Positions 7,556 through 64,000 of a stretch of 64,000 bases of DNA are shown in pieces. Positions within the stretch are counted from its first letter, which is position 1. Each line of letters starts with the position of its first letter. A program made the translations under genes and the position numbers. Source of the DNA: Hirudo medicinalis (taxonomy: Eukaryota; Annelida; Clitellata; Hirudinida; Hirudinidae). The notes beneath the pieces were generated by a model. The model had not been told where the DNA came from, ran no database searches, and saw nothing but the letters and a program-made list of their open reading frames with translations. Location: assembly GCA_011800805.1 (NCBI GenBank), contig MPNW01000139.1, positions 1 to 64,000 of the forward strand. The letters are read 5' to 3'.

Positions 7556-8348
7556 TATACTCCCCTTTTATTTATCACTATTTACCAAACAGTTCATCTG
7601 CAAACGCCATATTATCGCATCAATGATTTGTAAACAAAAAATATAAAAAAACTCTGGTGACACTATTATTATGACAGATTAACAGTTAGGTGATTACATA
7701 TTCAAACTAGCGTAACTGCATAATTGAGTTATGTATTTAAATTATTAAATTTACGGTTTCCGTAACTTGTTCTCACTATTGTAAACCTACTTCAAAATTT
7801 AATCGACCATTTTGGAAAGATAATATAAAATATTAAGATCTTATCATGTTATTTATGTGGCACTGCATAATTGGACAATTTCTGAACTCATTTTAAAGGG
7901 ATTTTGTTGGTGTAAAGGTTCTAGAGCCATCACGTGAACGAATATTTAATGCACTGAATTCATACACCGGGCGGACTATCTCTGGAGATTTTGAAAACAA
8001 AGTGACGTGGAATGGTGGCGGTTCACCACCCAATGGTAATTGTAATGGAGTGTAAAGAATAAAAGTGTCATTTAGTGGCGTAATTAAGTTTTTTGACTTG
8101 AGTTCCAACGTGACTGTTTAAATTGAGTTTATTACGTTGGACCAATAAAAAAAAATGTCTTTCATTTTAAGGGCGCTTATTTTAAAATTTTCACTGAATA
8201 TTTACTCATAAACTCTACATAATAAAGTTTTATGTTGTACGTTGGATCTTTGATTCCTCATCCTGCAAATTAATCTTAGAGTAGAACATGTTAATTTACA
8301 TATATCATTATTCGCATTTGACAAAATATTTATTTGTGTTAACTTGAT
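7556..8348. promoter_or_regulatory. Head-to-head intergenic region, likely promoter
   Basis: About 790 bases separate the ABCB7 start (minus) from the start of the unknown plus-strand gene, so promoters of both should lie here. On the minus strand an open frame of about 70 codons (7893-8108) ends in TAA and begins without an ATG. It resembles an orphan terminal exon, but I find no partner exon or family. Confidence 0.35.
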
Positions 8349-32289: not shown

Positions 32290-32985
32290 CTAGGTAGATA
32301 AGTGGGTTCCTCTGTGATGTAGGTCTTCATTTTTCATTTTTGCCTTTTTTCGAGGTACACAATTTTTCGACGAGGTTCCACCGTGTGGTTCGATGTCATC
32401 CTGCATCTCATCGACTTCGTCGAAAAATTCCTCGAGCTGAAAAGGATATTTATTTTTATATATTAAAATAGAACCATTTTTTTATGATCAAACAGCTTGC
32501 TAAAAATTAATTATATTTGCAAAAAATGTCTGCTAACAAGGAAATGGATAGAAATGGTGAACTCACGTCAGAGTCATATTCATCAGATGAGAGTTCTTGA
32601 CCTTCTCCGTTCGACATACCCTCCGATTGATCCACGTCTAGTGTCACATTCTGCCTATAAGCATTTTCTTTTTCGTAGTCTGATGGCGAAGACTTCGGCC
32701 GGGATTGATTTTCGTTTTGCTTAGAAAGGAAGATTATTTATATATCATAAATTTTTAAGAGCAAACTGATCAACAAATTTAATAAATTATGCCTTACCAC
32801 GACTCTAAAATGATTTTTAAGTCTTCTGAAGGCCACGAACGATCCGACAATGAATGTCACTGTCATGAAAGCCAGCCATATTACTAGAACGGCAGAAGCG
32901 ATAAATAGTTTTGATTTCGTCTGGGTTATCTTTTCTCTTTGTAGTTTTTGTGTATTAACGACATCCGTGTTGTCATCCACAAGAG
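32290..32985 (-). other. C-terminal membrane anchor and cytoplasmic tail of the giant collagen
   Basis: Three exons. The first (32985-32798) follows the last Gly-X-Y exon with a linker of about 29 residues ([19 protein letters not shown]), then a hydrophobic stretch of 27 residues (begins [14 protein letters not shown], ends IVGSFVAF), then RRLKNHF. Arginine and lysine right after the span predict a cytoplasmic C-terminus. The second exon (32719-32567) is Ser/Asn-rich with [11 protein letters not shown] and ends SSDEYDSD. The third (32436-32290) begins [14 protein letters not shown] and ends in a basic segment ([10 protein letters not shown]) before the TAG stop. The Asp/Glu/Ser cluster resembles CK2-type acidic sorting clusters, which is inference. 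All three join in phase. Confidence 0.88.
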
Positions 32986-35900
32986 CTGAAAAATAAATTA
33001 ATTAATTACCTCAGATTCACTCGACATCATGATATATAAAAATAGTAAATGTCTCTCAAGCTATGGTTGATTTCAACAATACGACAAAAGCCTTGCCTGC
33101 CGCTCCTACTCCTGCAGAACCTGGCCTTCCCTGAATTCCAGTGGCACCCGTTGATCCAGTGGATCCTGTTCCACCAGTATAGCCACTAGATCCTGTGCTT
33201 CCAGTCGGACCCGTTCGCCCTTTTGATTTTTAAATTTACATTTAATTTGTTTAAAATATCTTTATAAGTGAATGCAATTCACTAATTAGTAGCTTTATCT
33301 TTACCTGGAGGACCAGTATATCCCATGGGACCTGTCATTCCTGGCATTCCCATACTTCCAGGTTCACCTCTGGATCCTGCATTTCCTCTTGGCCCTTGTG
33401 GACCCTGCTGACCAGGTGACCCTGGACTGCCTGGTGATCCAGGTTGTCCATCATTACCAGGATTTCCAGTTGGACCAGGAGCTCCCTGACTACCAGCAGG
33501 ACCAGCATAACCTAAAAATTTAATGTATAAGTAATATATAAGTAATTTAATGTACATATAAGTAATTATCTATCTATTTGCTTCCTATACCTTGGGGCCC
33601 TGGGCGTCCCTCCTGACCAGTAAATCCTGTAAATCCTGGTGGTCCAACCAAACCAGGAGCACCATATCCACCTTGACTACCAGGATATCCAGTTTGGCCT
33701 TTAGGTCCTATTGAACCTATTGATCCTGTGGCTCCGACAGGACCTGTTGCTCCAGTATAACCTGTTTGTCCTGCTGATCCACTCTGACCTGTTGATCCAG
33801 TGTCTCCTAAAATGTTGGAAATAAAAATCGAAATGAAATTGTTATTTTTTGCTAAATGTCAGTTTGAAATAACTTGAGAAAATATGGAAGTTAAAGCATA
33901 CCAGGAGGTCCTGCAGGTCCAGGAATTCCTCGCTCACCGGGATTGCCCATAGGTCCGGGAGAACCCAATGGTCCCTGAAGTCCCGGTTGTCCTTGCATCC
34001 CGATGCTACCAGCCGGTCCTACAAATCCAGTATATCCAACAGGTCCTGGTAATCCTGTAGGACCAGTAGATCCTTGTTGGCCAGTGAAACCAACCTGTCC
34101 TGTCATGCCCGTATTACCAGAGTTTCCTATTGGACCAACTTCTCCCGGAGAACCACGATCTCCCTGAGGTCCTATGGGACCTGTAGGCCCAGGCAGCCCT
34201 TGTGATCCAATATTACCTATATCACCTCGAGGACCTTCAGGTCCTATAGGTCCAATAGGACCAACAATTCCAGTAGCTCCAACAGGACCGGGCTGACCCA
34301 CAGGACCCTGTGATCCTTGAAATCCGGATGGACCCGCTAGACCTGTATCTCCCAGGGCCCCAAAGGTCCTGGTGGACCAATTGGACCTTTAGGCCCGGTG
34401 GCGCCACTTGATCCAGTATCTCCTGGAGGCCCTACATATCCAATTGAACCTTGCGGCCCGACGGGACCTTGAGGTCCAGTAGATCCTGTATCTCCCATTA
34501 GACCCTGTTGTCCTCTTTGACCTGGAGATCCTACTGGACCCTGCTGTCCCGCTTCTCCATTAACTCCCGTAGGACCTCTTAGGCCTTGACTTCCCATTGG
34601 CCCTTGAGGACCAATAGGTCCAATATATCCAGGCAAACCCGTCACACCCCTGGGACCTCCAGCTCCCGGAGGTCCATTAGGTCCAATCGGACCGGTTGGC
34701 CCCATAGGACCTGTATTTCCTGTTTCACCTGGATCGCCTACATCACCTCTTGGACCTAAGGGTCCTAGGGATCCAACTGGTCCCGCGGGTCCCGTTGCAC
34801 CTACTGGTCCTTGAGGTCCTGGTAATCCCATTTCTCCTATTTGACCGGAAGGTCCAATATCGCCAGATGGTCCTGTTGAGCCTGTGGAACCTGTAGATCC
34901 TGGTGGACCCATTTGGCCTATATCCCCCTTTGGTCCTCCTGGCCCAGTAGCTCCTGTTGCACCAGGCAAACCTTTCAAACCTTGTTGCCCCGAATCTCCC
35001 TTTTCTCCCTTTGGTCCGGAAGCTCCAGTAGCTCCTAGGGGACCTGGAGGACCCTGAGGTCCTTGATTTCCGAGCGGACCTGTTTCACCTGTATTTCCGG
35101 GTAATCCAAGGCTTCCGACTGATCCAGGTAGACCAAGTTCTCCTATTGGACCAGTCGAACCTGTTGGGCCTGCAATTCCTGCCGCTCCTGGGGGACCAGG
35201 AGGTCCTATAGGGCCCAAGGGTCCTTGAGGGCCAGATTCGCCTTTTGGTCCAGTGGCACCAGGCGAACCGATTGGACCTTGAATGATTAGATTAAATTAT
35301 AATTAAATTTTACTTCGATAAAAATTATAATATGTCTGAAAATTACCTGCGGGACCAATCGGTCCGCCGTCACCTTTCGGTCCCTTGGGCCCGGTTGCTC
35401 CCTGAAAACCTGTACCAGGTGGTCCTACTGACCCAGGATATCCAAGAGGTCCTCGAGGTCCTGCTGGACCGGGCAAGCCTGTGTCTCCTTGTGATCCTTG
35501 AGGACCCTGAGCTCCAACAATCCCAACAGGGCCTTTGGGTCCTTTCAATCCTGTCGAGCCTTTAGGACCTAGTGGACCTGGTTGTCCAGGTGACCCTTGG
35601 CTGCCCGTATCTCCGGTGTCTCCAAGAGAGCCCTGAAATCCAGGGGCACCAATTGGTCCGATATTTCCATCCTGACCAGTCGGTCCGGTATCTCCAGACG
35701 GTCCCGCAGGACCACCTGTTCCCGGACTTCCAATGGATCCTGGTGAACCTCTATCACCTTTTTGTCCCGCTAAACCTGTAGCTCCAGTGGCACCTTTAGC
35801 ACCAGAATTACCATTTGGTCCCATTGGACCACGCGAACCAGTGTCGCCAGAAGGGCCCTGCAATCCAGTAGCTCCCTGAACCCCTAAAAGTGAACATTAG

Positions 35901-38900
35901 TAAATTTTATTTTTTAGTTTATACATTTCTTTAGCAAGCTTTATAATTCAAATAACTGTAAAGCAATGACATAAAGAAATATCACTCTCATGCTTTTGCT
36001 TGTTACTATTTTGAAATTTGTTGAGGGTTGAATGACATTCATGAAATCACTTGGAAAGGGATACACATTTATTCAATTAATTAACACTTGTAAACATTAG
36101 AAACTAGTCAATGATATCCCAAAATTTGAAAAATATTTATGTTTGAATGATGTTCAAAATATACCTTGAGGTCCTGAAAGCCCAACTTCACCCCTTGGAC
36201 CAGGTGCTCCAGGTTGTCCTGCGGGTCCAACCGAACCTGATGAACCTGTGGCACCTGCTGGCCCCACCGGTCCGACTATTCCATCCTCTCCTGGTAAGCC
36301 AGGAAAACCTGTACTGCCAGTATCACCCTGAGGACCCACGTTTCCTACTTGTCCAATCGCTCCACTAGAACCAGTTGTCCCCGTATCTCCAGTTGCCCCA
36401 GTTGGACCTGTTGCACCCATAAATCCAGGAGCACCAGATGGACCCTGAAGACCGGCTAAACCGGGAATTCCAGATGACCCTTGAGGACCCTGGGCGCCAG
36501 GATAGCCAACAGGACCTTTGGTTCCAGGTGCACCCGATGGCCCAAGATTTCCTGGAGCTCCTGGTAGGCCAATATCTCCAGGGGGTCCAACTGAACCTGA
36601 CTGACCAGTGTCGCCCGGAAGACCTTGAATTCCCTGTTGACCCTGAGGGCCAGCTGATCCCATTTCTCCGGTGAATCCCATTGGACCCGCTGGACCCGTG
36701 GCTCCATTAGGTCCCGGAAGCCCAGGATTACCTATTGATCCAACAGGACCCTGCGCTCCAGTCGATCCTTCGGACAAAAGCATCTATTATTGAAGCTATC
36801 TGACATTGTGATAGGCTTTACTAGTTTTAGAGCTGTGTGTATTTACCAGTTGGTCCCAGCAGTCCGGTTTGTCCCTGTGGACCTTGAGATCCCTGTTGAC
36901 CAGAGAGACCAGTTGAACCCGTATCCCCTACTGCTCCAATAGGACCTGGAACGCCGGGCGATCCAACTGATCCCATATCTCCAGACTGTCCTTGAGGACC
37001 AGAGAATCCAGTGGCCCCTTTTGTTCCAGTCATTCCCTGCGAACCAGTACTTCCAGTTTGTCCAGGCTGACCTGACAGACCGATCGCACCTGTCGCTCCG
37101 ATACTTCCAGAGATTCCAGGCTGTCCAGGAGCGCCATCATTACCAGGTTGGCCAGCTGGACCAATCTGTCCGGTTCGTCCAGGAAGTCCAGGCAAGCCTG
37201 TATCTCCTTGTGGACCGATCACTCCAGTTCCACCGATCGATCCAGTTCGTCCTTGTGTTCCTTTTGCGCCCGGCTGACCCGACAAACCGGGCTGACCATT
37301 GGGTCCGGGCGAGCCTTGTAAACCAGTAAGACCTCTTGGTCCAGTGGAGCCAGTTGAACCAGGAAGACCAGGAGCGCCCGGGGAACCATTAGCCCCTTGA
37401 GGACCAGTAAATCCTGTTTCACCTTTAGTTCCAGTGTTGCCAGGAAGTCCTTGAAGACCTTAAAAACAAAATAAAACCGATTTTATATCAGTTACATTAC
37501 TTTAAAAAAGCTTATAATACATTAAATAAGTTGCAAGAAATTAACCTTGTGATCCCATAGGTCCCTGACTTCCGCTGTCACCGGTTCCTCCTTTAGGTCC
37601 TTGAAGTCCAGCCACACCCAGAGATCCAAATGGTCCAGGTAAACCGGCATCTCCCGACGGACCAGGAAGACCTGAGATACCTGTTGCACCGGTAGCTCCG
37701 GGCTGTCCCACCGCTCCTGGATCGCCAGCTGGCCCAACCGGTCCCATTGCACCGGTATCTCCTATGACTCCACTAACTCCGGGCTCGCCTTGAGAGCCTT
37801 GCTGACCTGTAGCTCCCGTACTGCCTTTTGGACCACTAACTCCCATGAGACCTGTCGCGCCTCTAGCGCCAGGCGCCCCTGAAGGACCAGGTGAACCTGT
37901 ATTTCCGGTTGCTCCCACCATCCCAACAGTTCCCTGAAGGCCATTTTGTCCAACCTGACCCTGTTGGCCAATGGATCCTGGGTCCCCAGTATTGCCCTTT
38001 GAACCAGATAATCCTGGAAGTCCAGTTGCACCTGGGGCTCCTACCGGTCCAGATAAACCAGTGTCGCCTTTTTCTCCTTGGGGTCCTGTTATTCCTTGCA
38101 ATCCTCTCGTTCCTTGATTTCCTGGTGATCCTGCATCACCAGCCGGACCAGGTGTGCCGGGTGATCCTGCGGCTCCAGTGGCACCAGGCTGTCCAGCTTG
38201 GCCAGGAGATCCGATGCTACCTGGCTGACCAGGGGAACCCTGTGCTCCCATACCTCCTGCAAGCATGGTTTGATGAAATATTTAAAACAAAAGGCGAATT
38301 CAAACATCTCAGTTAAGGAGATTGCCTTTTCTAGCGTTCTAACACAACCACCGCTTGTTTTCACATAATTGTTACATCCTTGGGGCGGAAATATTATCAC
38401 TTAAATAAGAGAGGTAAACATATTTCAACCTGGTATTCCACTTTGTCCTGGTTGCCCTGGAAAGCCAGATTCTCCTTTAGGTCCTTGATTTCCTTTAGTG
38501 CCCTGAGGTCCAGCGTTTCCTTGTAACCCAGGAACACCTTGTTGCCCTTGATCTCCCATTAAGCCTTTAGCACCGGACAATCCGGGTTGACCTGTAGCTC
38601 CTTGAATACCTTGTGAACCACGATTTCCAACGGAACCAATATTGCCCTTTGGTCCTGGACCTCCTGAAACACCTGTAGCCCCTTGAGGTCCCTGAGAACC
38701 TGGCGAGCCATTATTTCCGGGCTGACCCGCATTTCCTCGGATACCCTTGGCGCCAGTGGCCCCAATTTCTCCAACAGCACCCTGAGACCCTGGTAACCCA
38801 ACAGACCCAGTTGCACCGGTGGCGCCTGGAGCTCCCATTTGGCCTTGATTTCCTGGTGAACCAGGTTGTCCCAAAGGCCCTAAAATTTGAGAATTAGTTA

Positions 38901-41900
38901 ATTTAATTTGGCTCTAAAATAAATCTATTAAGCTTGCCTTGGGGTCCAGTAGATCCGGTTGACCCGGAAGGTCCTTGGACTCCTTGAATTCCATCCTGTC
39001 CCCTTTGTCCTTGATTTCCAACTGCACCTTGCAATCCAGATAAACCTACAGCTCCTACATCGCCTGTCGCACCATTGCTTCCTGGAAGTCCAACGGAGCC
39101 ATTTTCACCCGTGAAGCCAGTGTCTCCATTCGGACCTGGAGCTCCCGGAAGTCCGGACTGCCCCATAAGCCCATCTGTCCCGGTTGACCTGTAAAGCCCG
39201 TTGAACCCTGTTGTCCATTTTGTCCTGGGATGCCTGCCTGTCCTTGATCTCCTCTTTGTCCAGGACTTCCACCGATACCCGGTTGTCCCTTAAAACCTGT
39301 TTCGCCGGTGGAACCCTGTAAACCCGTAGCACCAATTTGTCCAGAACTACCTGTGAAACCTATTTCGCCTTGAGCTCCTGTAAATCCAGGAATTCCAGGT
39401 TGGCCGGAAATACCAGTTGAACCGGTATCACCTCGAGTACCTGGAGCCCCCTGAAAACCTGATTCTCCTCTCAAACCGGTTGCTCCAGGCACACCTTGAG
39501 AACCAGTAAAACCTCTTTGTCCTGTCGGTCCAGGCACTCCTTGTTGTCCTTGCTGACCCGGTGAACCTGGTTGGCCAGGACTTCCAGAAGACCCAGTTGC
39601 ACCTTGTTCGCCAAGTGCTCCTACAGCTCCTTGTTGGCCAAGCTGACCCGGAGCTCCAGTGCTTCCACTGGGACCCCTTTGTCCAGGATTGCCATCGGTT
39701 CCCGGAGATCCTTAATAGAATTAAAAAATGAATTTGTATTGACTACCATGAAAATAATGCTAATTAATATTATTGCTGCATATTAAATACACATAAGGGA
39801 AAATTTGTGGCTGACGTAAAACGTGATGGTTTTTATTTTAAAATTTACCTGGATTTCCTGAATTTCCAGTATCTCCAGTAGCACCTTGAGGACCTCTAGC
39901 GCCTTGATTACCTGGCAATCCAACATCTCCCCTCTGCCCTCGAACTCCCATAGATCCAGAAACACCTGTTGCACCAACGCTACCTGGCTGACCGTCGGGT
40001 CCCGGCTGTCCAGTTCCACCCTTTTGCCCAGTCAAACCTGTAGCTCCTGCTACACCTTTTTGACCTTGAATACCTGGATTTCCTGGTTGGCCCGTAAAAC
40101 CCGTCGGACCGGGTAATCCAGGCAAACCTGGAGAACCCTGTGAGCCACCATCTCCTCTTATTCCAGTGGGACCTCTTGGCCCTTGGGCACCTGGAGAACC
40201 AGAATCGCCTGCAGGCCCTTGCTGACCCGAGGGTCCTGGAGCACCTACTTGACCAGCCTGACCTGTATTACCCTTTGAACCCGGTAAACCTAGTGCACCT
40301 TGCAGACCTACAGAAAATTTTTAGGCGTGATAACTTCATTTATCACTTAAAGCTTTACATTTAGATATAATGGTATAATTAATTGACCTGGTTGTCCCGT
40401 AGATCCAATTTCTCCTATTGACCCTTGTTCGCCTGGTGAACCCATGTCTCCGGTTGCCCCCTTTAAGCCTTGAGGTCCAGGCATTCCACTTACTCCGGGA
40501 GAGCCTCTGAGACCCTTAGCACCAGATTCGCCTAAAAGCCCTGGTGCTCCGACTGGTCCAGCTGCTCCAGGAGATCCAGGCAAACCAATCACTCCTGAAG
40601 AACCTGTTGCGCCCGTAAATCCTTGAGGACCTGGTAATCCTTGAGAACCTCTTTGCGATGAGGTCCTGGGGGTCCTGGAAGTCCCTGTTGTCCTAAAGTT
40701 CCTTTATCGCCAGTAGAACCTGTGAAACCTTGAATACCAGTAGATCCGGAGTTACCGAGGACACCCTGATCACCCTGCATTCCAGGTTCTCCTTTTGTTC
40801 CAGGCTGGCCAGGCTGTCCAGGACTTCCAATGGAACCTGTCGGACCCATTGGTCCGGTGTCACCTGTTGAACCGGTGGCACCAGGTTGCCCGATATTGCC
40901 ACTAAAACCGGTGGTTCCTAGGGCTCCAATTGGACCTTGACTTCCTTTTTGACCTGGTTGTCCCTGAGGACCCATAGGACCTAAATATAGAATGACAGTC
41001 TTTGTAACATGGAAATCTTAACGGTCTGCATACATTGTGAAATAAATTGCTAACCTCTCTCTCCAGGCTGCCCAGTTTGACCTGGAAAACCCGGAAGACC
41101 TCTTTGCCCTTGGGATCCAGCTTGCCCAGGAAATCCCAGAGGTCCAGTGCTCCTTGAAGTCCTCTCTGACCAGTCGCACCAAACAATCCTGTATTGCCTT
41201 GTATGCCAGGAGCTCCGATGGGACCCTGAGCACCTAAATCGCCAACTGATCCAGGATCGCCTCTTTCTCCCTGAAGACCAGGTAATCCTAATTGTCCCGC
41301 CTGTCCTTGAGGACCGGGTTGACCTGTCGACCCCTGAAAACCGGGAACACCTATTATCCCCTGCATTCCAGGCTGACCTTGAGCACCTGGATCTCCTCTT
41401 TGCCCAATAGGTCCTGTGTCACCCATAGAACCAGGAGATCCAGCTTGACCTTGAGTCCCTGGTTGTCCAGGATTACCAGGCAAACCGCTTTCCCCTTGCA
41501 ATCCCGGTTCACCATTTAATCCAGGCATACCAACTGAACCTTCTAAACCGAAGGCTCCTGGACTTCCTGGTGAACCAATTGATCCAGGAAGTCCTTGACT
41601 TCCTAGCTCTCCTTTAGAACCTTGTACGCCTTGCATGCCCTGCTGCCCAGGATTTCCGGGCATTCCAACATCTCCCGCAAGACCCTTTTCTCCCTTTGCT
41701 CCAGTCTCTCCTGGTGTTCCTGGCTGTCCAACTGCTCCTGGAGAACCCATTTGTCCAGTTGATCCTTTTAATCCGCTAGGTCCCTGAATGCCCTGTTGAC
41801 CCGGTGCTCCTGGATTGCCTTTTGGACCCGCATCACCCCTTGGACCCTGAGGGCCCTCCAAGCCTGATGCACCTGCCGGTCCTTGAAACCCAGGTTCTCC

Positions 41901-44900
41901 TTTTTGTCCTACCATACCAGGTATTCCCGTCGCCCCAGTGAAGCCTGTGTTACCTGACATTCCAGTAGCTCCTGTTGATCCAAAATCTCCAGGAATTCCT
42001 TTAGATCCGGCTTGGCCCATATTTCCAGGTTGTCCTGAACTTCCAGCTACTCCGGGTGAACCTTGGGAACCAAATTCGCCTGTGTATCCTTGTCCTCCTG
42101 TGGGTCCTGTATCTCCGGTATTTCCCATAGTTCCTTGTGAACCTGGTAGCCCTGGAGAACCTTGAGGCCCTACCATGCCTGACTGACCACCGGCTCCAGG
42201 CAAACCACTTTCTCCAAGTGTCCCTGGCTCTCCTGGTTGTCCTGTTGCGCCCTGAGATCCTGGATTTCCTCTGGTACCCGATTGGCCAGGTACTCCCTGA
42301 ATCCCGCTTTGTCCATTTGAACCAGTGTCTCCTCTAGAGCCAGGCTGTCCGGTGGGTCCAGTAGCGCCTTGAAACAGATGTTTTTGATAAACATAAACTT
42401 CATTTCTAATCGCGTAATCTATTTCAATTTATATTTTTATTTACCTTGGGGCCCTTGAAAACCTTGTTGTCCATTCTGGCCTGAAACACCAGGAAGTCCC
42501 TGCAAGCCAGGAAATCCTTGAGTACCAATATCTCCCCTTACTCCCTGAGAACCAGTGGAACCGGTTGAACCAGTATCTCCTGGTAGACCATTTAAGCCAG
42601 TTGCTCCCTGAACGCCACCAATACCCTGAGCACCGTTTGAGCCTGGATCACCTCTAGGACCTTGACTCCCCTGAGTTCCTGTAGATCCAGTTGCCCCTGG
42701 TAGACCGGCAGCTCCTGGTGCACCTGAATATCCGGTGAAACCTGGCTGTCCATTAAAACCTGGAGCACCACTAGATCCAGGTATTCCAGTTAAACCCTTA
42801 GGACCCTGAGGTCCAGCTTGCCCTGGCTGGCCGTTATTCCCTTGTTGACCGGGTAATCCAGAAGATCCCTTGGCACCAGCTGGACCTGACACTCCAGGGA
42901 TTCCTACAATAGGTCGCTAACTTTATTAAAAATAAATTAATTATATTAAATTAATTGAAGATTTTAAAATTATATTTTATGCATTTATCTAAATGTACTT
43001 ATTGTATTAAAAATCATATGGAAGTGCAATATTGTTATATTAAATGAATGGTACATAAATTGAAGATTGAAGTCCATACCTACTTACGATCATATACATG
43101 TGGCATACGAAATTTATTTGGGTTTTTTTTTACCTATGGTTAGAATTTTTAATCTTTCTTAAAGCATTAAATAAATAAGAAATTGGGTACCTGTGCTGCC
43201 AGTCGATCCCTGTTGCCCTTGAGAACCAGATTCTCCTTTGGGTCCCTGATTACCTTGACTACCCATGGATCCCTTTTGTCCAGTAGCTCCTGTAGGTCCA
43301 GTATATCCTGTTTCACCTTTGGAACCGGGTGTCCCTATTTGACCGGACATTCCTAAAGGACCTTGTGGTCCTTGATCTCCAGCAAGTCCTGGAAGTCCAC
43401 TCATACCCTGCGCACCTCTTGGACCTTGCTGCCCAGGCTGTCCTATAGCTCCCGTGAAACCTGTATTTCCATTAGCACCTGAAACTCCAGAATCACCTGG
43501 AGATCCGGAAGCTCCAGGATCTCCAGCTGGACCTGTATCTCCCGTTGCTCCTGTTGCACCCTGAAAACCAGGACCACCCACTGATCCGGATTCCCCTTTT
43601 GGTCCTGCAGGGCCAGTGGCTCCTTGAGGTCCTGTGCCACCTCTAATTCCAAGCGCGCCTTTTTGACCAGGTTGTCCTAAATTACCTGGGGAACCTTTTA
43701 ATCCAGGTTGGCCTGGTTGACCATTAGCACCTTGTGGACCAGATGGGCCGGTGTCACCTGTTGTTCCTTGTTGACCGGGCGTTCCTTGTTGGCCTAAAAT
43801 TTTGATAGATTCGACGTTGATTGTGATATCTTAAAGCAAAATGACAAATCAAGCACAAATTTTTGCTTTTAACCAAACCTGGTTCTACTTTAAACATGTA
43901 TCAACTTATTTAAATTTTAACATAGCGAACAGCTATTATTCTTTTTAAAAATTTGACAAAAACTGACAAGACTCGGACTTCAACAAGCCTTTCAAAGTGA
44001 AAAAATCTTTAATTGATCTTACCAGGTAAGCCAATACTTCCAGGGGAACCGACGGATCCCATTTCTCCTTTTCCACCAGAAGTTCCCGTTGCTCCAGTGG
44101 CTCCGGGAAGACCTGACTGACCTGACTGACCCCGTGTTCCTTCCAAACCGGCACTTCCGGTAAATCCAGTTTCTCCTTGTAAACCGGTAAACCCTGTATT
44201 TCCAGTAAGACCAGTGAAGCCAACTTCTCCATTAGGACCTGGCTGACCGACTGGACCCTGTTGACCAATTTCTCCTATTCCCCCAGATGCTCCTTGCATT
44301 CCAGAAACTCCAGAATTTCCTTTTGTGCCCATATTTCCTGTAAAACCAGTGTCTCCAGGAAGTCCCTTAGGACCCGTTGCGCCTTGTGGACCGACAGATC
44401 CTGGAGAACCTGGCTGACCACTAGGCCCTAAGTTACCAGGTTGCCCAGGTGTTCCTGCTGCTCCTCTTGTTCCTGGAGTTCCACTTTGCCCTTTCAAACC
44501 TTTAGGGCCAGGTTGGCCCTGTTGACCAGGATTACCCATCAAACCAACAGGTCCGCTGATTCCCATTTCTCCTTTTTGGCCACTTGGTCCTTGAACTCCG
44601 GTGAAACCTTTGAAAATTACAAGGTTATAAGATAAGTACTAACAAAATTATAATGTAAACAAAGCATGAATAATTTACAAGATTGAAGTCAAACCTTGTG
44701 GTCCAGTGACTCCTGTAAATCCTTGAAGACCTTGCTGGCCGGGAGATCCAGCGTTTCCTGGGGAACCGGGATTACCTGACTGGCCCGGAGCTCCAGGAGA
44801 TCCTATTTCTCCTCTCTGACCTTGACTTCCTGTATTGCCGAGGGTTCCAGAATTCCCAGAATATCCGGTATTTCCAGATGATCCAGTATCGCCTGTAGCA

Positions 44901-53900: not shown

Positions 53901-56900
53901 GTATCACCTGCCGATCCAGCATTTCCTGAAAATCCAGTTTCTCCTTTATCTCCAGTTGCCCCAAGCATTCCAGTTTGTCCAGGTTGTCCTTGTTGGCCAG
54001 TGGCGCCTGATAATCCCGGAAGTCCCTGATTTCCAGGTGATCCCTGTGAACCACTTCTGCCTTGAACTCCTTGCAATCCGGCGGCACCAGTACCTCCAGT
54101 AGCACCCGTAAATCCTGGCAAACCACTGTCTCCTTGTGTTCCCGCAGAACCTGGCAATCCTGAAGATCCCATAGAACCTGTGGCTCCACGTTCACCTGTT
54201 GAACCCTGTTGACCTGGAGTTCCAGCGTTTCCAGGAGAACCAGAGGAGCCTGTATCTCCAGTAGGCCCCTGCTGACCAACTAATCCAGTAGCTCCTTGGA
54301 CTCCGCCAGTCCCGCTAACTCCTTTTGCACCCGTAGAACCAGTGTTTCCGCTCAAGCCCTGCTGACCTTGAGCCCCTGTTGATCCTCGTTGGCCGGAAAT
54401 TCCAGATGTACCTCTATCACCTGCAGCACCTTGTGGACCTGGTTGTCCTTGGCTACCTGACTGGCCAGTTCTTCCAGGCACACCTGGTGCACCGATCGGC
54501 CCCTGTTGTCCTTTAAACAGTTTTATTTAAAAACTTTTACTATTGACCAATTTTAAATACGCATAAATAATGGCATGCAGATACTTTTTTTTTTTAATTT
54601 TTCGCTACTTCTAATTTAATATTCACATGAATTTTAAATTCTGTTTCTCCAAAATTTACCTTGCAACCCGTTTGTACCGGTTGATCCCGTTGCTCCAGCC
54701 GCTCCACCTACGCCATTGTCACCTGTAGCACCCACAGCTCCTGATTGACCCTGGGCACCTGATGAACCAGGTAAACCGGGCATTCCTGTGGAGCCTTGCG
54801 ATCCGGTAAACCCTTGCAATCCTGATGAACCATAACTTCCTGAAAATCCAGTATTTCCCGGTTGACCTTGATAACCAGATATTCCTTGGGCACCGGCCTG
54901 CCCAGTAAAACCAGTCGACCCTGTGAGCCCTGTGAATCCAGTTCCTCCGGCCGTTCCGGTATCTCCACTTAAACCTTTCTGTCCAGTCGCTCCCGTTGCT
55001 CCTGTGAAGCCAGTTGTTCCAGTCGTTCCTGTAAAACCCATTTCACCTGCTCTTCCGGCTTGTCCAGGATTTCCCGGTGCACCAGCGAACCCGGATTGTC
55101 CAGCCGGTCCCGTAAATCCGGTTGCACCTTGAGTTCCTGACTGGCCTGTGGCTCCCATGGCTCCATTAAAACCTGAATTGAAAGGCGAACGAATTATGTC
55201 AATCAAATTTTGTTAAAGGCGTTAACAACAAATCGCGTTATCAAAGGAACATTTCAAACAATTTTATTAATATATAAAGATTTTTAATGTTCCATTCTTG
55301 AAGTTAAACAATTTTATTCGCATCATAAATTTACTAGTCCATGGATACAAAAGGGTTGCACACCTGGAAGACCGGACGGTCCTTGAAAACCCCTATTCCC
55401 AGCGACTCCACTTTGACCCTGAGCTCCCTGAATTCCAGAAGTACCCTTGGGACCAGTTGCTCCAGAATCTCCCTGTGGTCCAGAAGTGCCCTTCTGACCT
55501 GGATTCCCTGATTGTCCCGGAGCTCCCTGACTACCTTGCTGTCCTGTGGCGCCTCTTTGTCCTGTCCATCCCTGCACACCAGTATCTCCGGTATCTCCAG
55601 AAATTCCACTTTGTCCCAAAACTCCCTGTTGACCCGTCTGTCCCGGCATTCCGTTTGTTCCGGAACTTCCAGTATCACCTGGACTACCTGATGTTCCAGG
55701 TGACCCCATAGGTCCTTTAGGGCCCCTTAAACCACTAAATCCTGGCATTCCAAGAGCACCGGGGCCTCCAGATTGACCAGTGGGACCCGTCTGTCCGGTA
55801 TTTCCTAAATTAAATACAAATCAAATTGCTTAAAGTGATAGACCAGAAGGCTGGTACATAGATGTACAAAAAACTTATTTGTCTCAAGTATGGGACTCAT
55901 AGTGACACTGTAATTATTCAATTCTAATTCTTATAGAGATTTATAAAATAATATCAGTTTTTATCTAACCTGCACTTCCTTGATTTCCTGGTAACCCTGG
56001 AGCTCCAACTGAGCCACTTGGACCAGGAGAACCAGGCGAACCTGCTGATCCCGGTGCACCACTTGGTCCAACTTGCCCAGGTGATCCGGAAAACCCAGTT
56101 GCTCCTTGCAGTCCCTGACTGCCTGGCGCTCCTTTGTTTCCAGATGATCCAGGAGTTCCATTAGCGCCGGAAAAACCTGTTCCACCAGTAGCGCCCATTT
56201 GACCGGAAGGTCCGGTAAACCCGGAAGCACCAGTTGCGCCAGTATAACCAGTAAATCCTGTTCACAATGTATTAATATTGCATTTGGACAATTATTTAAA
56301 GTTATAAAATGTAATGAAACATGGCAGCGTTACCCAGAATGCCAGAAGCTCCAGGTTGGCCAGTGAAGCCGGTTGTTCCTGTATCACCAGTCTGACCGGC
56401 ACCACCAGGTTGGCCAGATTGGCCTGGGGTACCTGGGATGCCACTAGCACCTGGTTGTCCCGACTGGCCTTGGGAACCTTGAGGACCCGGCAAACCTATC
56501 GTGCCTGAGGAGCCTGTGGAGCCTTGAGCTCCTGCATTTCCAGGTTGACCTTGAGAGCCAGCTTGACCTTGGCCGCCAGTGGCACCGGTTGCTCCTTTAA
56601 TTTCAAGAAAATTTTAAGCATGCATTGTTTAAGGAACGAATTAAATTAAATGTCATTTTTATTTGTATTGTCTAGATATTGTTTGCCAGAAATATTCCTC
56701 AAAATTTTGTATACCTTGCATTCCGGTTAAGCCAGAAGAGCCAGTTGCCCCAGTTGATCCAGTCGATCCCTGCGTTCCTTGCACTCCTGTGACGCCACTT
56801 GAACCTTGAACTCCAGATGGGCCTTTGCTTCCTGTTGAACCTTTCTGACCGCTAGCTCCTGACAGACCAGTAGCTCCAGCGAAGCCTGTGTACCCAGGTG

Positions 56901-59900
56901 ATCCGGTATATCCGGTTTCACCTGTGACACCTTGTTGACCCAATTGTCCAGGTTGACCTGAAATTTATAAATAATTTTGAATACAATTTTTAATTTTATT
57001 TTAAAATAACATAAAATTTACCTGTATTTCCGGCAAATCCAGGTTGACCAACGGTTCCTGTTGAGCCCGTGAATCCAGTTTCTCCGGTAGAACCGATGTT
57101 ACCTGTCCCTCCTGTGCCTCCTTGGAGTCCTTGTTGGCCCAAAGCACCGTTGGACCCTGCCTGACCAGGACTTCCAGGCAAACCACTTGGACCTTTCATA
57201 CCTTCTTGTCCCATTTGGCCCTGGCTACCCGGTTGACCCTTGTTGCCAGTATTACCTTGAAGGCCGGGTTGTCCTGAGCGATAAAAATAATAATGTAATC
57301 ACACTTCGAAAAATATTTAAACAACTCTCTTATAAAGTAAAAATTGAATGTTTTCTCTGCTTTTATAGATAATTTGTCACCTGTCAATCCTTGCAATCCA
57401 GAACTTCCTTGTTGTCCATTGTCTCCGGTAGCACCAGTGAATCCTGTAAAACCTGTGGCCCCTTGTGCACCCTGAGAACCACTATTGCCCGTAACTCCTT
57501 TCGCCCCTTGAGGACCAAGTTGGCCTGGCGTTCCTGTGTCACCTGGCTGCCAGGTAATCCAGATTGACCCTGAACTCCTTGTTGCCCAACATTCCCTTGT
57601 TGTCCTAAATTGCCAGTTGCCCCTTTAGCACCTCCTGGACCGCTAGCTCCCGTCGATCCTCTAGCACCTTGTTGTCCTTGTGGGCCTTGATCTCCGACAA
57701 TACCCTTCTGACCTGTGGTTCCAGTTCCTCCAGTTGAGCCTAAAAGAATATTACAAGCATGAATTTGCAGTCACACTTTTGAAAAATAAGTACCAAATAT
57801 TTACCTGGTTGGCCTATGTTACCAGTATTTCCAGTCGCTCCTTTCACGCCAGACTGTCCTTGAACTCCCTGCGAACCTTGTGAGCCACTCTGACCTTGCT
57901 GTCCCGTAAATCCAGTTATACCTGTTGCACCGGTGGCTCCTGCCATTCCAGTGTCTCCTGATGAACCCAGAGTTCCCTGCATTCCCTGTGCCCCTGTTGA
58001 TCCAGTAGCCCCTTGACTTCCAGGCAACCCTTTAAAAATAATTTTTTATATTTGCATAATTCATTTTAGCCATGTGAGAGACCAAAATGTTTTATCTGCA
58101 ACACTGTTTTATGCCATGTTGTATTAGTTGCTAATTAATTATTTAGTTTTTATGGACGAAGGCCATTCGTAAAATTAACCTGTAGGCCCAGATTGCCCAG
58201 TACTTCCGAGTGAACCCGGCTGCCCTACTGGACCTGCAATTCCTGATCCGCCTGCTAAGCCAGTAACACCTTTAGGTCCAGGCATTCCCGGAGAACCATC
58301 TGATCCTGCTAAGCCAGTTGCTCCCATGCTCCCTTTTCCACCTGGCATTCCAGAACTTCCGGAAGGTCCTGCGAAACCCGTTGCTCCGGTTGCTCCAGTC
58401 TCTCCAACACTACCAGGATTTCCGGCCTGACCACTATTACCAGCAGGGCCGGTAAAACCTTGAATGCCTGGCATTCCTGACTGACCTTGGCTTCCTTTGG
58501 TTCCTTGTTGTCCAGTCTGTCCAGTAAATCCTTGGTAAGGGCAATCAAACGGTTAATTACCAACCGTTTCAAAAATGTCTATCAAATTAAAAATTCTAGC
58601 CTCTAGGTCCAACTTGCCCTTGAGCTCCTTGTGATCCTTGTTCACCTGGTGATCCAGAAGGTCCAACTAAACCAGACTGCCCAAGGGAACCAGTGGCTCC
58701 GGTAAATCCAGTGTCGCCTTTTAGACCAGTGGCACCGCTAGCACCCGTAGAACCTGGTGTACCACTAGATCCTGTGTATCCTGTAGCTCCTGTAAATCCA
58801 GTCTGCCCTGCAACTCCAGAAATACCTTAGAAAGAAATAAATTAAAGCTATTTAAAAAAAACTGCTTACAAATGCTATATCTAATAGTATTGTATTAAAA
58901 TGATTTTGTAAACTGATTTAATAAGAAATAAGAATACTTGATTTCGTAATACAGCGATCATCTTAAATATTAATGAATTACCCGATTGTCCTTGGAATCC
59001 CGTGTTGCCAGTTGCCCCGGTAAAACCGTTGGAGCCCTGAACTCCAAGAACTCCGGGCGTTCCAATCGCTCCAGTCGCTCCGGTGGCTCCTGTCATACCT
59101 GTAGCACCACTTTGGCCGGAAACGCCCATGCTTCCTACCTGACCGGATGATCCTGTTGCACCAGTACTGCCAGTGACTCCACTGATGCCTATGCTACCAG
59201 GTGCTCCAAGTGAACCACTCTGTCCCTGTGCTCCTGAATCGCCCATTTGCCCTGGTTGGCCTGTTTGTCCTGTTGTTCCAGGAACTCCAGAGATTCCTTT
59301 GAGACCGGTGGAACCCGTTTGGCCCGTGCCTCCTAAATTAAAAAAAAATGAATATTGAATATAGTTTGGTTTGTTGCTTAGTTTAGCAAAGTTTGTTATT
59401 TTTTTAAATAAAAATGTGTCAAGCTAATTACCTTGAATGCCTTGTTGGCCACCAGTTCCTGACTGGCCGGTGCCTCCTTTTGCTCCATCCATACCACTAG
59501 GTCCTTGAAGACCTGTCGCTCCGCTCAATCCATTTGCACCGAACTGACCTGGCAAGCCTTGAGATCCAGTAGACCCGGTAAATCCCTTTGCACCCGAGGC
59601 ACCAGTTAATCCTGAAAGGCCGGGCGCCCCAGATTGGCCAGGTGTACCGGTCGGACCTTGTTGAGTGGAATATGGTTTAAAATTAGAATAAATAAAACAG
59701 TAGAATTTTGTATGTTATAATGCAGTTATTCAATTTGCATTATAAAAACACAAAATGCCAAAGAAAAAAACCTTGCGTTCCAGGTGTTCCAGGTGAACCT
59801 TGCGCACCGGCAGGTCCTGGCGAACCTTGCGAACCTGGTTCACCTTGAGAGCCAGATTGGCCAGATGGACCTTGTGTACCCTGTTGGCCTGTAAATCCCG

Positions 59901-60560
59901 TAAAACCCTGCAAACCTGATGTACCTGGTTGTCCTGGCTGACCGTTAGGTCCCGGTCTTCCCGCTTGGCCAACCATGCCAGGATCGCCTGGAAGACCAGT
60001 TGCCCCTAGGCTTCCAGGCTGGCCGACATTCCCAAGAAGTCCCGTAGAACCTCTGACACCTGTTGCTCCCGCTGTGCCTGTCGGCCCTTGCTGACCTTGT
60101 GGTCCAGGCTGTCCTTGCAATCCTAGATGCAAGGAATCATTTTAAATAATCTCTGAAATCATAAAATTATGTAAATAATATCAATACCTGTTTGACCAAT
60201 CTGTCCTGTATTTCCCTTTGCTCCGGAAAAGCCTGTAGCTCCAGTGGAACCGGTAGATCCCGCCTGGCCCATATTTCCTAATACACCACTCTGGCCAGTA
60301 TCCCCCGTGTAACCTGTTAATCCAGTAAAACCTTGAACTCCCTTATTTCCCGAGCTTCCAGTTGCACCAGTTTGTCCGGTTGTACCCGTTGAACCTGTTG
60401 CTCCGGTTGAACCTAAGAACGTGAGTGAATGAAATTTTCAAATAACACGAATCAATAGACGTATCAAGCATCCTAGAAAGTTATTATATTGTACATTATT
60501 TAGAGCCTTCTAAAGTCGCTCGAATGACATATTTTTATATTATTATTATTATTATTATTA

Positions 60561-60604
<44 letters not shown>

Positions 60605-63600
60605 TGTTACCCCACTCAATCCCGATGATCCGGGTTGCCCAGGTTGTCCTGAAGCACCAGGTGAACCTGAAGATCCCTGTTGGCCTCTCTGTCCAGCTAA
60701 ACCAGGCATTCCTGTAAAACCTAGAGATCCAGTGACCCCGGTAGCACCAATTGCACCTGTTGCTCCGGTAAATCCTGAAGAGCCAGTCACACCTTGAATT
60801 CCAGGTGTACCTTGAGCACCCGTGGCACCTTGAAATCCGCGTTGACCTGTGGCGCCCACTTCTCCAATTTGACCAGGAAACCCGGCAATACCATTGGATC
60901 CACTTGGACCTGTTGACCCTGTGGCTCCTTGGTTGCCACTTGCACCGGTTGTACCTGTCCCTCCCTGTGGTCCTAAATTTCGGAAAATTTCGGAAGCATT
61001 TTGTTACATTTAGAATCTGAGTAAAAAGTAAATCACAGAATAATTTCTTTTATCTAATATAAAAATAAATAAAATAGAAATAAATAACATACGTTTAATT
61101 AAATGAAACATAACTATTAAAATAAAATATCATTTATAAATTCAAACCAATTAAAAATTCAATTATTTACTGTGCAACAAATTTGATGTGAAATATAAAA
61201 CAAAACCTTGTAATCCTGAAATCCCTGGCTGTCCAATCATTCCAGGTTCTCCTGATGCACCAGGTAATCCAGGAAATCCGGTAGCTCCAGGTGATCCAGT
61301 ATTTCCGGGGCCACCCGGAATTCCTTGCGACCCCCGTCCGCTTTCTCCTTTTTGACCCTGAGGCCCGGTAGCACCCTGATCTCCGAGACTTCCCTTAGGC
61401 CCAGTTCCTCCTTGAGGGCCAGGTTGTCCGGGTGATCCAGCTGTGCCAGGCGATCCAGCGCCCCCGCTCGAACCTGTAAATCCTTGGGGACCTGTTGGTC
61501 CCATAAAACCTGGCTGCCCTTGTTGGCCATTGTCACCTGTAGCTCCCGATGGTCCAGTACCTCCAGTAAATCCTTATTTTTAATGAGAGATTTATTAGAA
61601 AATTATGTTCTAAGAACAAATCACAATCTAAAGTCACCTTGTGCTCCTTGTTGCCCTAAGTTCCCAGCAACTCCTGTGGGACCTTTGATACCTGTGGCTC
61701 CAGTGGAACCAGGAAGTCCGGGTATTCCATTAGCTCCAGGTTGTCCATTGGATCCCGAAGGCCCTGGTGAACCGACATTACCAGGTGCGCCTGAGGGACC
61801 GGTTTGACCTGTTGCGCCAACAGCTCCAACACTTCCTGATACGCCGTTAGGGCCTGGAAATCCCTTTGGACCTTGTTGACCCGCTTGTCCTGGCTGACCA
61901 GGTGTGCCAACATTTCCTTTTGGTCCTGGTTGACCTGACTGCCCAGTGGGACCTTAACATTAATTAGTAAAATTTTTCAATCAGGTAAAGCAATTGCAAA
62001 ATGTACTTTTCCACAAATTACCTGCAGGGCCAGTTGATCCGGTTCCGCCTGTAAAGCCTTTGGGTCCTTGAGATCCAGAAGGTCCAGAAGATCCTGTCTG
62101 TCCAGTTGATCCCGTACTTCCTGTGAAACCATTTTGGCCTTTCAATCCAGGTGATCCCTGAGAACCTGTCGGACCAGGTGAACCAGATGAACCTGTTGAA
62201 CCCGTTGCGCCTTGGGATCCTTGAGTTCCTGGAGAACCTGATTGACCTAGAAAATTCAACAGAATCATTATAAAAAAATACTTTATACATTTTCTGTTAA
62301 CATAGCAACCTTAATAATATCAATAATTTTATAATAATTTTATTTACCTTGAGATCCTGGGAAACCTGTACTTCCAGTACTGCCCATATCGCCTTGCAAC
62401 CCGGTATATCCAGTTGAACCAGCCGGGCCAGTGAATCCCAATTGACCAGTGGCACCAGTAAAACCAGTTCCGCCGGTGGCTCCCATATCTCCAGTTGCTC
62501 CTTTAGCGCCAACTATTCCGCTTGCACCTGATGGCCCACTAAAACCAGCAGTTCCCTGAAATCCAGGAAATCCTTGAACTCCCTTTGGACCTGTACTGCC
62601 GAGTGACCCCGTTGGGCCAGATAACCCTGGCTGACCCATCTGACCAGGTGAGCCAGGTGAACCACTCATACCAGGTTGTCCTGGTTGACCACCAGTTCCT
62701 TAATAAAAATTGGTATGACAATAAGAATAGAAATTTCGAAATCCTATTTTAAAAGAGGATGAGTAGAAAATTAATTAGCACCTGGTGAACCTCCTTGCCC
62801 CGGAGAACCGGCGGACCCGGGTTGGCCTGGATTTCCTGCTAGCCCAGGAAAACCGGATAATCCGTTTTGACCATCAATCCCTGTGGGTCCTGTTGAGCCT
62901 TTTGAACCTGACTGTCCAAGAGTTCCTGATTGCCCTTGAAATCCAGTAGAACCAGTGGCACCTTTTGAACCTTGTTGACCTTGGGAACCGGTTAAACCTT
63001 GTGGACCAGATTGTCCGGATGGACCCTGCGATCCCTGAGGTCCACTCGGTCCTGGAGAACCTGCAGGCCCCACTGCACCGGACAAACCTGATGCACCTGA
63101 TGGCCCAGTGTCGCCATCCGGTCCTTTTTGACCGACTGCTCCCGAAGATCCTGGTAGTCAAATAGAATATTTTCTGTTGTATGAACACCAGTAATGCTAA
63201 GGTCACTCGAAGTATAATAACCTAATAATAAAATTTTCGTAATCATACAATATTACTTCATATCACTCATATAATTCTGCTTCTTAACTCACCGGTTGCT
63301 CCTTGTGATCCCATCCCTCCTGGGCTTCCGGCATTTCCTTGTGGTCCCGATGGTCCTGTAGGTCCTACCTGACCAAGCGGACCTGCCATTCCAGCAGTTC
63401 CAGGTTGCCCGGATTGTCCCATCGAACCAACCGATCCTTGCTGCCCACTTGAACCGGTGCCACCCGTGGCACCTGGGCTACCTGATGGTCCAGATAGACC
63501 GGTATATCCTGTATCGCCTTGAGGTCCAAGCGGTCCTTGAGGTCCTGGTTGTCCTGAGGGTCCAGAAGGACCAGTTGGACCGGTGAATCCTGTGAATCCT

Positions 63601-64000
63601 GGAGCACCACCTTGGCCAACTTGTCCAGGTTGTCCAACTGATCCTGGGGAACCAATATTACCCGTCGATCCGGTTGCGCCTTGTTGTCCTGGATTACCGG
63701 GCAAGCCTTGCACACCTTGGTCGCCACCGTCGCCTATTTCGTAGAAATTCAAATTATTGGTAGGGAAAATTAAGATCTCTTCCATTTATTGTAGAACTGC
63801 TTGTAGTCCAAATAAAAGATATATAATTTCGTTGTTCACTCGACTATTCTGATAACTAATTTAAAAACTAATTTGTAAACAGTTTTAATGACATGCCTGG
63901 ACTCCCTGATGAACCAGTAGCCCCTGTAGAACCCTGAGGACCAGTATTTCCTTGATTTCCTGGTGCTCCTTGTGAACCAGCTCCTCCTGACTGACCTGGT
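32290..64000 (-). CDS. Giant transmembrane-anchored collagen (5' end outside window), candidate annelid-type cuticle collagen
   Basis: Fifty-four Gly-X-Y exons run from beyond the window edge down to 33097, followed by three non-collagen exons (32985-32798, 32719-32567, 32436-32290). The helical exons sum to about 24.2 kb, or about 8,080 residues. There is no fibrillar COLFI, type IV NC1 or C1q-like domain and no Cys that I noticed in the helix. Thr, Ser and Gln are very frequent in Y positions (GATG, GFTG, GSTG, GQQG). The C-terminus is a linker, one hydrophobic span and an acidic tail, so the helix is extracellular and N-terminal to the membrane. Annelid and vestimentiferan cuticle collagens are known to be about 2.4-2.6 micrometres long with galactosylated Thr in Y, so size and chemistry agree. 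That identity is my inference. Five exons carry a one-base deletion. The signal peptide and N-terminal domain are not in view. Confidence 0.96.
34348..34366 (-). other. Single-base deletion in collagen exon 4
   Basis: Above this point Gly-X-Y runs in one frame and ends GPLGPWEIQ before a stop. Below it the repeat resumes as [10 protein letters not shown] in another frame. The exon measures 1376 bases, one short of 1377 (153 triplets), so one base is missing around the ccc/gggg/aaa runs. Confidence 0.85.
39158..39170 (-). other. Single-base deletion in collagen exon 10
   Basis: [11 protein letters not shown] in one frame becomes [10 protein letters not shown] in the next. The exon is 773 bases, one short of 774. 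Confidence 0.85.
40647..40664 (-). other. Deletion and base errors in collagen exon 12
   Basis: [10 protein letters not shown] leaves register and [10 protein letters not shown] resumes in another frame. The exon is 593 bases, one short of 594. The local text also loses an expected Gly, so more than one change occurred here. Confidence 0.8.
41141..41152 (-). other. Single-base deletion in collagen exon 13
   Basis: [14 protein letters not shown] leaves register, while [10 protein letters not shown] continues in the neighbouring frame. The exon is 1313 bases, one short of 1314. Confidence 0.85.
51036..51056 (-). other. Collagen acceptor preceded by poly(A) instead of a pyrimidine tract
   Basis: On the minus strand the AG used by exon 27 follows a run of A residues (poly-T on the plus strand at 51038-51055). 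A weak TTTTTAC lies further upstream. Phase requires this acceptor. Confidence 0.6.
57543..57554 (-). other. Single-base deletion in collagen exon 39
   Basis: The repeat reads GQSGLPGS and then resumes as [10 protein letters not shown] one frame over. The exon is 359 bases, one short of 360. Confidence 0.85.
60540..60602. repeat. (ATT)n microsatellite in collagen intron
   Basis: About twenty att triplets with one gtt, directly abutting the donor side of helical exon 47. Read through, it encodes poly-Asn, which is not part of the protein. Confidence 0.9.

Follow-up and report, generated by a model that had tools for sequence, protein, structure and literature searches.

The stretch analysed here (the window) comprises positions 1 to 64,000 of contig MPNW01000139.1 of the leech Hirudo medicinalis, a contig of 335,993 bases, and its minus strand carries most of a giant collagen gene, hereafter C139, which we compared with other loci found by searching the same genome (133 Mb in 1,557 contigs; C561, C35, C457, C996, C155 and C103). 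Gly-X-Y coding runs fill the minus strand from 33104 to 63996. Between 33001 and 64000, runs of at least 8 triplets sum to 2,741 triplets, the longest being 136, while order-1 Markov controls of the same stretch (n = 50) contained no run of at least 8 triplets and reached 6 at most; the plus strand of the whole window yields a total of 30 residues in runs of at least 5 triplets. That C139 encodes a real giant helix is, in our judgement, near certain.

A splice-aware exon-chaining model places ~23,955 nt of helix, or 7,985 residues, within the window (2,661 triplets, fewer than the raw-run total since raw runs slightly overrun splice sites). This agrees to about 1% with the ~24.2 kb and ~8,080 residues of Gly-X-Y counted in an initial annotation of this DNA, whose start coordinate for the gene, 32290, coincides with the C139 stop codon. 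The gene extends beyond the window to contig position 68054: 58 of its 68 exons touch the window, which holds the 3′ nine-tenths of the gene, and 10 more lie at contig 64263–68054. As modelled, the coding region spans 35,765 bases with 75% exon content and encodes a product of 8,963 residues, ~810 kDa before modification (26.9 kb coding sequence). Its helix, interrupted 4 times, comprises 8,561 residues (2,847 triplets), which bears out the earlier description of an almost uninterrupted Gly-X-Y repeat. At the collagen helix rise of 0.286 nm per residue, the full helix measures 2.45 micrometres; the ~2.3 micrometres first derived referred to the window alone.

From its N-terminus, the predicted product consists of a signal peptide, a von Willebrand factor A (vWFA) domain, the helix, a 26-residue linker, a transmembrane segment and a tail containing blocks of acidic and of basic residues. 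The vWFA domain lies N-terminal to the helix and has two flanking cysteines (Pfam, E = 3.8e-11). Only two segments of the chain exceed a mean Kyte-Doolittle hydropathy of 1.7 over 19 residues, the signal peptide (2.46) and the C-terminal segment (2.51), and the maximum inside the helix is 0.97. The linker and tail exons are spliced to the helix by GT-AG sites with matching phases, and cysteines occur at positions 39, 233 and 8940 only, so that the helix end is left without a disulphide knot. Furthermore, at each of the five loci whose 3′ end could be read (C139, C561, C35, C457 and C996), a hydrophobic segment is followed by basic residues; splices were resolved for C139 only, and in the other four this end is an open stretch lying downstream of the helix. 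The 3′ end of C155 is unreadable, and the 5′ end of C561 is truncated at the contig edge.

We consider it very probable that C139 is a single gene with a C-terminal membrane anchor. If instead the collagen were secreted unanchored, the membrane and tail exons would belong to a separate gene or to a minor splice form, a view that draws on the last helix exon, which reads through to a stop at about 33056–33058 when left unspliced. The phase-compatible splice sites of C139, the identical order of elements at the five readable loci and the occurrence of helix and membrane segment in one reading frame in two database proteins (P0001 and P0141, below) make this very unlikely. The succession of signal peptide, vWFA domain, giant helix, C-terminal anchor and cytoplasmic tail seems to be a new architecture, the reverse of that of type II membrane collagens. 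The initial annotation had recognized the giant helix, but not the vWFA domain, which lies beyond the window, nor the anchor at the C-terminus or the matched paralogue described below.

GT-AG introns were either a requirement of the model or picked manually. Within the helix, each of the 61 modelled introns splits a codon after its first base, and at 60 of them this is a Gly codon. We treat the intron at 49288–49338 as dubious because it is the only one off a Gly codon and the raw runs abut there. Split-Gly introns are the style of non-fibrillar collagens, whereas fibrillar genes use 54-base phase-0 exons. With frame breaks corrected for, only 5 of the 62 helix exons have a length that is not divisible by 9, namely the two terminal ones and three of 366, 795 and 186 nt. 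Intron phases agree at both ends of the gene, and the model is open. Five one-base frame breaks nevertheless interrupt otherwise open exons (Table 1; positions uncertain within a few bases). Were they real, these five breaks in 26.9 kb of coding sequence would make C139 a decaying pseudogene, which we regard as highly improbable: Gly has been retained throughout the triplets of the helix save at its 4 interruptions, the splice phases do not vary, and the sequence is open at either end. The breaks are moreover of like form across loci, with a two-base codon just before glycine at 4 of the 5 in C139, at both of those modelled in C561 and at the single one in C155 (C35 and C457 have none), which suggests a common technical cause. 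We read the five breaks in C139 as candidate assembly errors.

Table 1. Features of the giant collagen gene C139 within the window
Feature	Position	Strand	Remarks
Gly-X-Y helix exons in window	33121..64000	-	55 of 62 modelled helix exons; helix continues to contig 67093
Last helix exon	33121..33219	-	donor GTTCTG after ...GIQGRP-G, phase 1, hand-picked, in-frame join to next exon
Exon with juxtamembrane linker and single C-terminal transmembrane segment	32798..32985	-	hydropathy 2.51
Exon with first part of cytoplasmic tail	32567..32719	-	GT-AG, phase 0
Last exon, end of cytoplasmic tail, acidic then basic	32290..32436	-	stop TAG 32290-32292
Dubious 51-nt modelled intron	49288..49338	-	probably an interruption within one exon
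Modelled frame break, one base short, at helix interruption	40657	-	alignment column also interrupted in C561
Modelled frame break, one base short	34354	-	three others near 39156, 41147 and 57545

A second locus, C561, encodes a vWFA domain at its N-terminus, truncated where the contig stops, followed by 8,529 helical residues (2,837 triplets, 3 interruptions) and a C-terminal membrane segment. Because whole-helix alignment of the two chains proved uninformative (non-Gly identity 27.4% versus 25.6% in one shuffled-triplet control), exon lengths were compared in its place. Once the frame breaks had been allowed for, equal lengths were found in 42 of the 57 exon pairs aligned (including two terminal exons whose outer ends were set by the model), with a score of 122 compared to a maximum of 12 in 100 shuffles. 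Across the 2,052 positions of each kind in these equal exons, identity was 13.0% at X and 17.6% at Y, versus 10.0% and 14.7% expected by composition. In the whole-helix alignment, 21 of the 61 C139 introns fell within 6 columns of a C561 intron, versus a mean of 5.1 and a maximum of 14 over 1,000 circular shifts. Two helix interruptions occupy shared alignment columns (3192 and 6507 in C139; 3162 and 6468 in C561), while the remaining two of C139 and the remaining one of C561 do not coincide; we give the shared pair moderate weight, since the second sits on a C139 frame break beside a PGPPGP common to both chains. As exon lengths have been kept while X and Y residues stand near the level set by composition, we infer selection on length, and consider it quite likely that C139 and C561 form a matched chain pair maintained in this way. 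The two products would then be candidate chains of one heterotrimer.

Within the C139 vWFA domain (contig 67159–67872, outside the window), D-V-K-L-Y stands in place of DxSxS, the metal-site motif of vWFA domains, and the readable part of the C561 domain has GGSTN and ITDG. Judged from these residues, ligand binding may differ between the partner chains.

Relatives of the anchored end were sought in protein databases. The C-terminal 315 residues of C139 returned 1,073 matches, with 8,000 candidates scored and the best 120 listed; among the matches listed, P0001 ranked first at 158 bits and was followed by a MARCO protein at 95. When the non-helical end of P0001 served as query, only P0001 itself and P0141 were recovered among 1,027 candidates of limited length. 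These two proteins, from two different sequence sources, each carry helix, linker, membrane segment and tail in one frame and have in common the tail motif GEGRTVxIxxEDSDVEVxR. A profile of their non-helical ends scored 16.3 bits against C139 and 21.2 bits against C561, values reached by 0 of 300 segment-preserving shuffles in either case; C35, C457 and C996 matched more weakly, with 1, 2 and 3 of 300 shuffles reaching them. Among 3,930 candidates of roughly 5.4–17 thousand residues, a search for full-length annelid relatives gave 20 matches, none named as annelid. The best full-length candidate, P0121, looks bacterial and was set aside.

The genome holds further Thr-rich collagens. C35 and C457 each contain ~5,100 helical residues (1.46 micrometres) and make up a second matched-length pair of 1,700 and 1,706 triplets, with an identity of 25.9%, near the 25.6% of the shuffled control (made for the C139/C561 pair). 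In both, the helix is followed by EGF-type domains and then a membrane segment, and the end of C996 is of like kind. The N-terminal domain of this second pair (C35:293–313k and C457:12–33k) has no Pfam match but contains a motif, RLQIWRP, that is common to C35, C457 and C155. In the shorter Thr-rich collagen at C103:137276–147000, one EGF-like and two vWFA-like stretches, recognized by eye, come after the collagen. Another position on this contig, C103:124303, was considered as a membrane end and rejected, as helix there is followed by intron-like sequence and then by more helix.

C139 was also compared with established collagen classes. The membrane-associated collagens with interrupted triple helices (MACITs; types XIII, XXIII and XXV) resemble it as single-pass membrane collagens whose chain is mostly extracellular, but, as type II proteins, they carry their anchor close to the N-terminus, and they have interrupted helices and a C-terminal cysteine motif that is conserved; none of them was identified in Annelida (PMC4678570). 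Unlike them, C139 has a C-terminal anchor and a nearly uninterrupted helix. We therefore rejected membership in this group on topology (by hydropathy, an N-terminal signal peptide and a C-terminal membrane segment) and on helix continuity (4 interruptions in 2,847 triplets). As for fibrillar collagens, a COLFI NC1 domain is absent, the C-terminal 162 residues have no Pfam match, and a 234-residue charge period is not among the five highest spectral peaks (charge or hydrophobic) of C139 or C561; autocorrelation and spectra likewise gave no long internal helix repeat among their top peaks. The end domains, together with the length of the helix, rule out fibrillar, type IV and type VI membership. 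Type VI-like collagens do share with C139 a vWFA domain adjoining the helix, and the sole match of the C139 domain to PDB sequences at E ≤ 0.01 is collagen alpha-2(VI) (E = 0.0065). The type VI helix is, however, about 335 residues long, so that the C139 helix exceeds it about 25 times, and C139 differs further in its membrane segment and in a vWFA domain without DxSxS.

The identity of the gene product was considered against what is known of annelid cuticles. Exon-level matches over the curated cut-off were obtained in this genome for the haemoglobin linker (PF16915; 6), destabilase (9), antistasin (46) and hirudin (2 pieces, next to each other on one contig), families of which the first is, to our knowledge, confined to annelids and the last to leeches; an annelid source, as first proposed, is thereby confirmed, and the hirudin matches mark it almost certainly as a leech. 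The same search in 14 control genomes found none, a weak control since those named are bacteria. Annelid cuticle collagen has long been known as an exceptionally long protein rod, 2.4–2.6 micrometres in length, with two chain types and a Thr-rich Y position whose Thr is glycosylated; in Riftia, Nereis and earthworms it is known as a protein with partial sequence, and we know of no membrane anchor described for it. C139 resembles these molecules in length, the presence of more than one chain type and globular domains, and in part in the Thr content of Y. Its 2.45-micrometre helix falls within their range, and two chain types in cuticle collagen would lead one to expect a second gene of near-equal helix length. 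In Y, Thr outnumbers every other residue in C139 (24.7%) and in C561 (29.9%), so the earlier statement that Y is Thr-rich holds for rank, though Thr fills a quarter of these positions and not a majority, and the proportion is higher in Riftia cuticle collagen.

The vWFA domain before the C139 helix answers to the globular domain beside a very long helix that is described for annelid cuticle collagen (PMC11766948). Long collagen fibres of the Riftia cuticle are secreted apically from the epidermis (PMC8789280). The initial annotation knew of no described full-length gene; annelid collagens of 7,719–8,859 residues were in fact reported in 2025, with 8,859 residues in Alvinella, 7,719–8,689 in Paralvinella and a similar chain in Eisenia, and are discussed there under cuticle and tube composition (PMC12403961). 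The alvinellid giants are like C139 in their thousands of Gly-X-Y triplets and in size (C139, 8,963 residues). The alvinellid and earthworm chains differ from it in having Pro at 33–40% of X positions, versus 12.0% in C139, while the longest Riftia chain has 13% (PMC12403961, Table 1); Pro-rich X is a feature of the alvinellid and earthworm giants and is not shown to define the cuticle collagen family. A term search of the main text of that paper found none of transmembrane, vWFA, von Willebrand or EGF, and no membrane-anchored annelid collagen appeared among the open-literature matches listed, with subscription literature mostly outside their scope. A giant annelid collagen gene has thus been known since 2025, and it is the membrane-anchored version that seems to be new.

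The proposal that C139 is a cuticle collagen, already made in the initial annotation, gains from length, annelid source, the rank of Thr in Y and the second chain of near-equal length, and is weakened by the proportion of Pro in X. On the evidence of sequence, we regard it as plausible, and consider it fairly likely that C139 is the principal cuticle collagen. A less likely reading assigns C139, as a giant type I membrane collagen, to some other surface, for instance that of cocoon-secreting, sucker, gut or glial cells, with the shorter C35 and C457 providing the cuticle chains: Thr occupies 34.8% and 39.2% of Y positions in these two, nearer to the Thr-rich Riftia cuticle collagen (PMC11766948), and they too are matched in length. 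Among the genes modelled, however, helices of ~2.45 micrometres are confined to C139 and C561, and chains close to C139 in size (7.7–8.9k residues) occur in other annelids (PMC12403961).

Taken together, we favour, as a likely explanation, that C139 encodes a chain of a giant leech epidermal collagen, most likely of the cuticle, that is anchored in type I fashion and zipped from the membrane as a length-matched trimer. In this model, the chain would enter the endoplasmic reticulum via its signal peptide and would be tethered by the C-terminal transmembrane segment, with the tail cytoplasmic (type I topology). Lying next to the C-terminal end of the helix, the anchor would bring three chains together within the plane of the membrane, where a trimer of length-matched chains, for example of C139 and C561 products, could be assembled, and the triple helix would zip from the membrane end towards the N-terminal vWFA domain. 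MACITs fold from their N-terminal anchor, and the direction proposed for C139 is the mirror image of theirs. With the anchor in the apical membrane, every rod would be given an orientation at the epidermal surface; the 2.4-micrometre rod would project from that membrane into the cuticle, to be either shed, possibly by proteolysis, or left anchored.

Several observations, besides the frame breaks and the Pro content already given, count against this explanation. Mature cuticle collagens are extractable matrix molecules, which is compatible with a membrane anchor only if the anchor is cut or the rods remain tethered, and a search for RXXR sites beyond the C139 helix and in the N-terminal 240 residues gave none, turning up just a KLQR within the linker and an RR that follows the membrane segment. 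The heptad pattern of the linker reached p < 0.02 in 4 of 7 sequences tested and was not significant in C139 (p = 0.62), C561 (0.076) or C457 (0.068); a juxtamembrane coiled coil in C139 was rejected on this basis. The C139 membrane exon alone matches P0141 weakly (E = 1.75, 26% identity). Finally, no membrane segment was noticed in the stretch examined of the shorter collagen at C103:137–147k, so that anchoring is not taken to be general among the Thr-rich collagens of this genome. In its widest form, the hypothesis would hold that the annelid cuticle is built of type I membrane giant collagens, nucleated and patterned on the apical surface of the cell starting at their C-terminal ends, whose paired chains conserve length and not sequence, staying equal codon for codon in most exons as X and Y residues drift almost without constraint, and whose origin is separate from that of MACITs; we see the chances of this as evenly divided.

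For the trimerisation, export and ordered layering of annelid cuticle collagen, a C-terminal anchor at the helix end would, if true, give a concrete answer on nucleation and orientation, and would imply that membrane collagens have evolved with N-terminal and with C-terminal anchors. The retention of exon lengths in chains whose sequence is near composition level points to selection on length, an observation of use for collagen design and for the study of collagen evolution.

Elsewhere in the window, exons of a Rab GDP dissociation inhibitor gene lie at 16094–17592 on the minus strand (Pfam GDI), and exons for ubiquitin-like and ubiquitin-binding domains at 471–1465, also on the minus strand (Pfam PF00240 and PF16455). 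A dispersed repeat containing GTTCGAAACC, which we take to resemble a tRNA B box, occurs at window 6970–6989 (minus), at L016 430–449 and at L006 2238–2257, and our guess is that it is a tRNA-derived short interspersed element of the leech.

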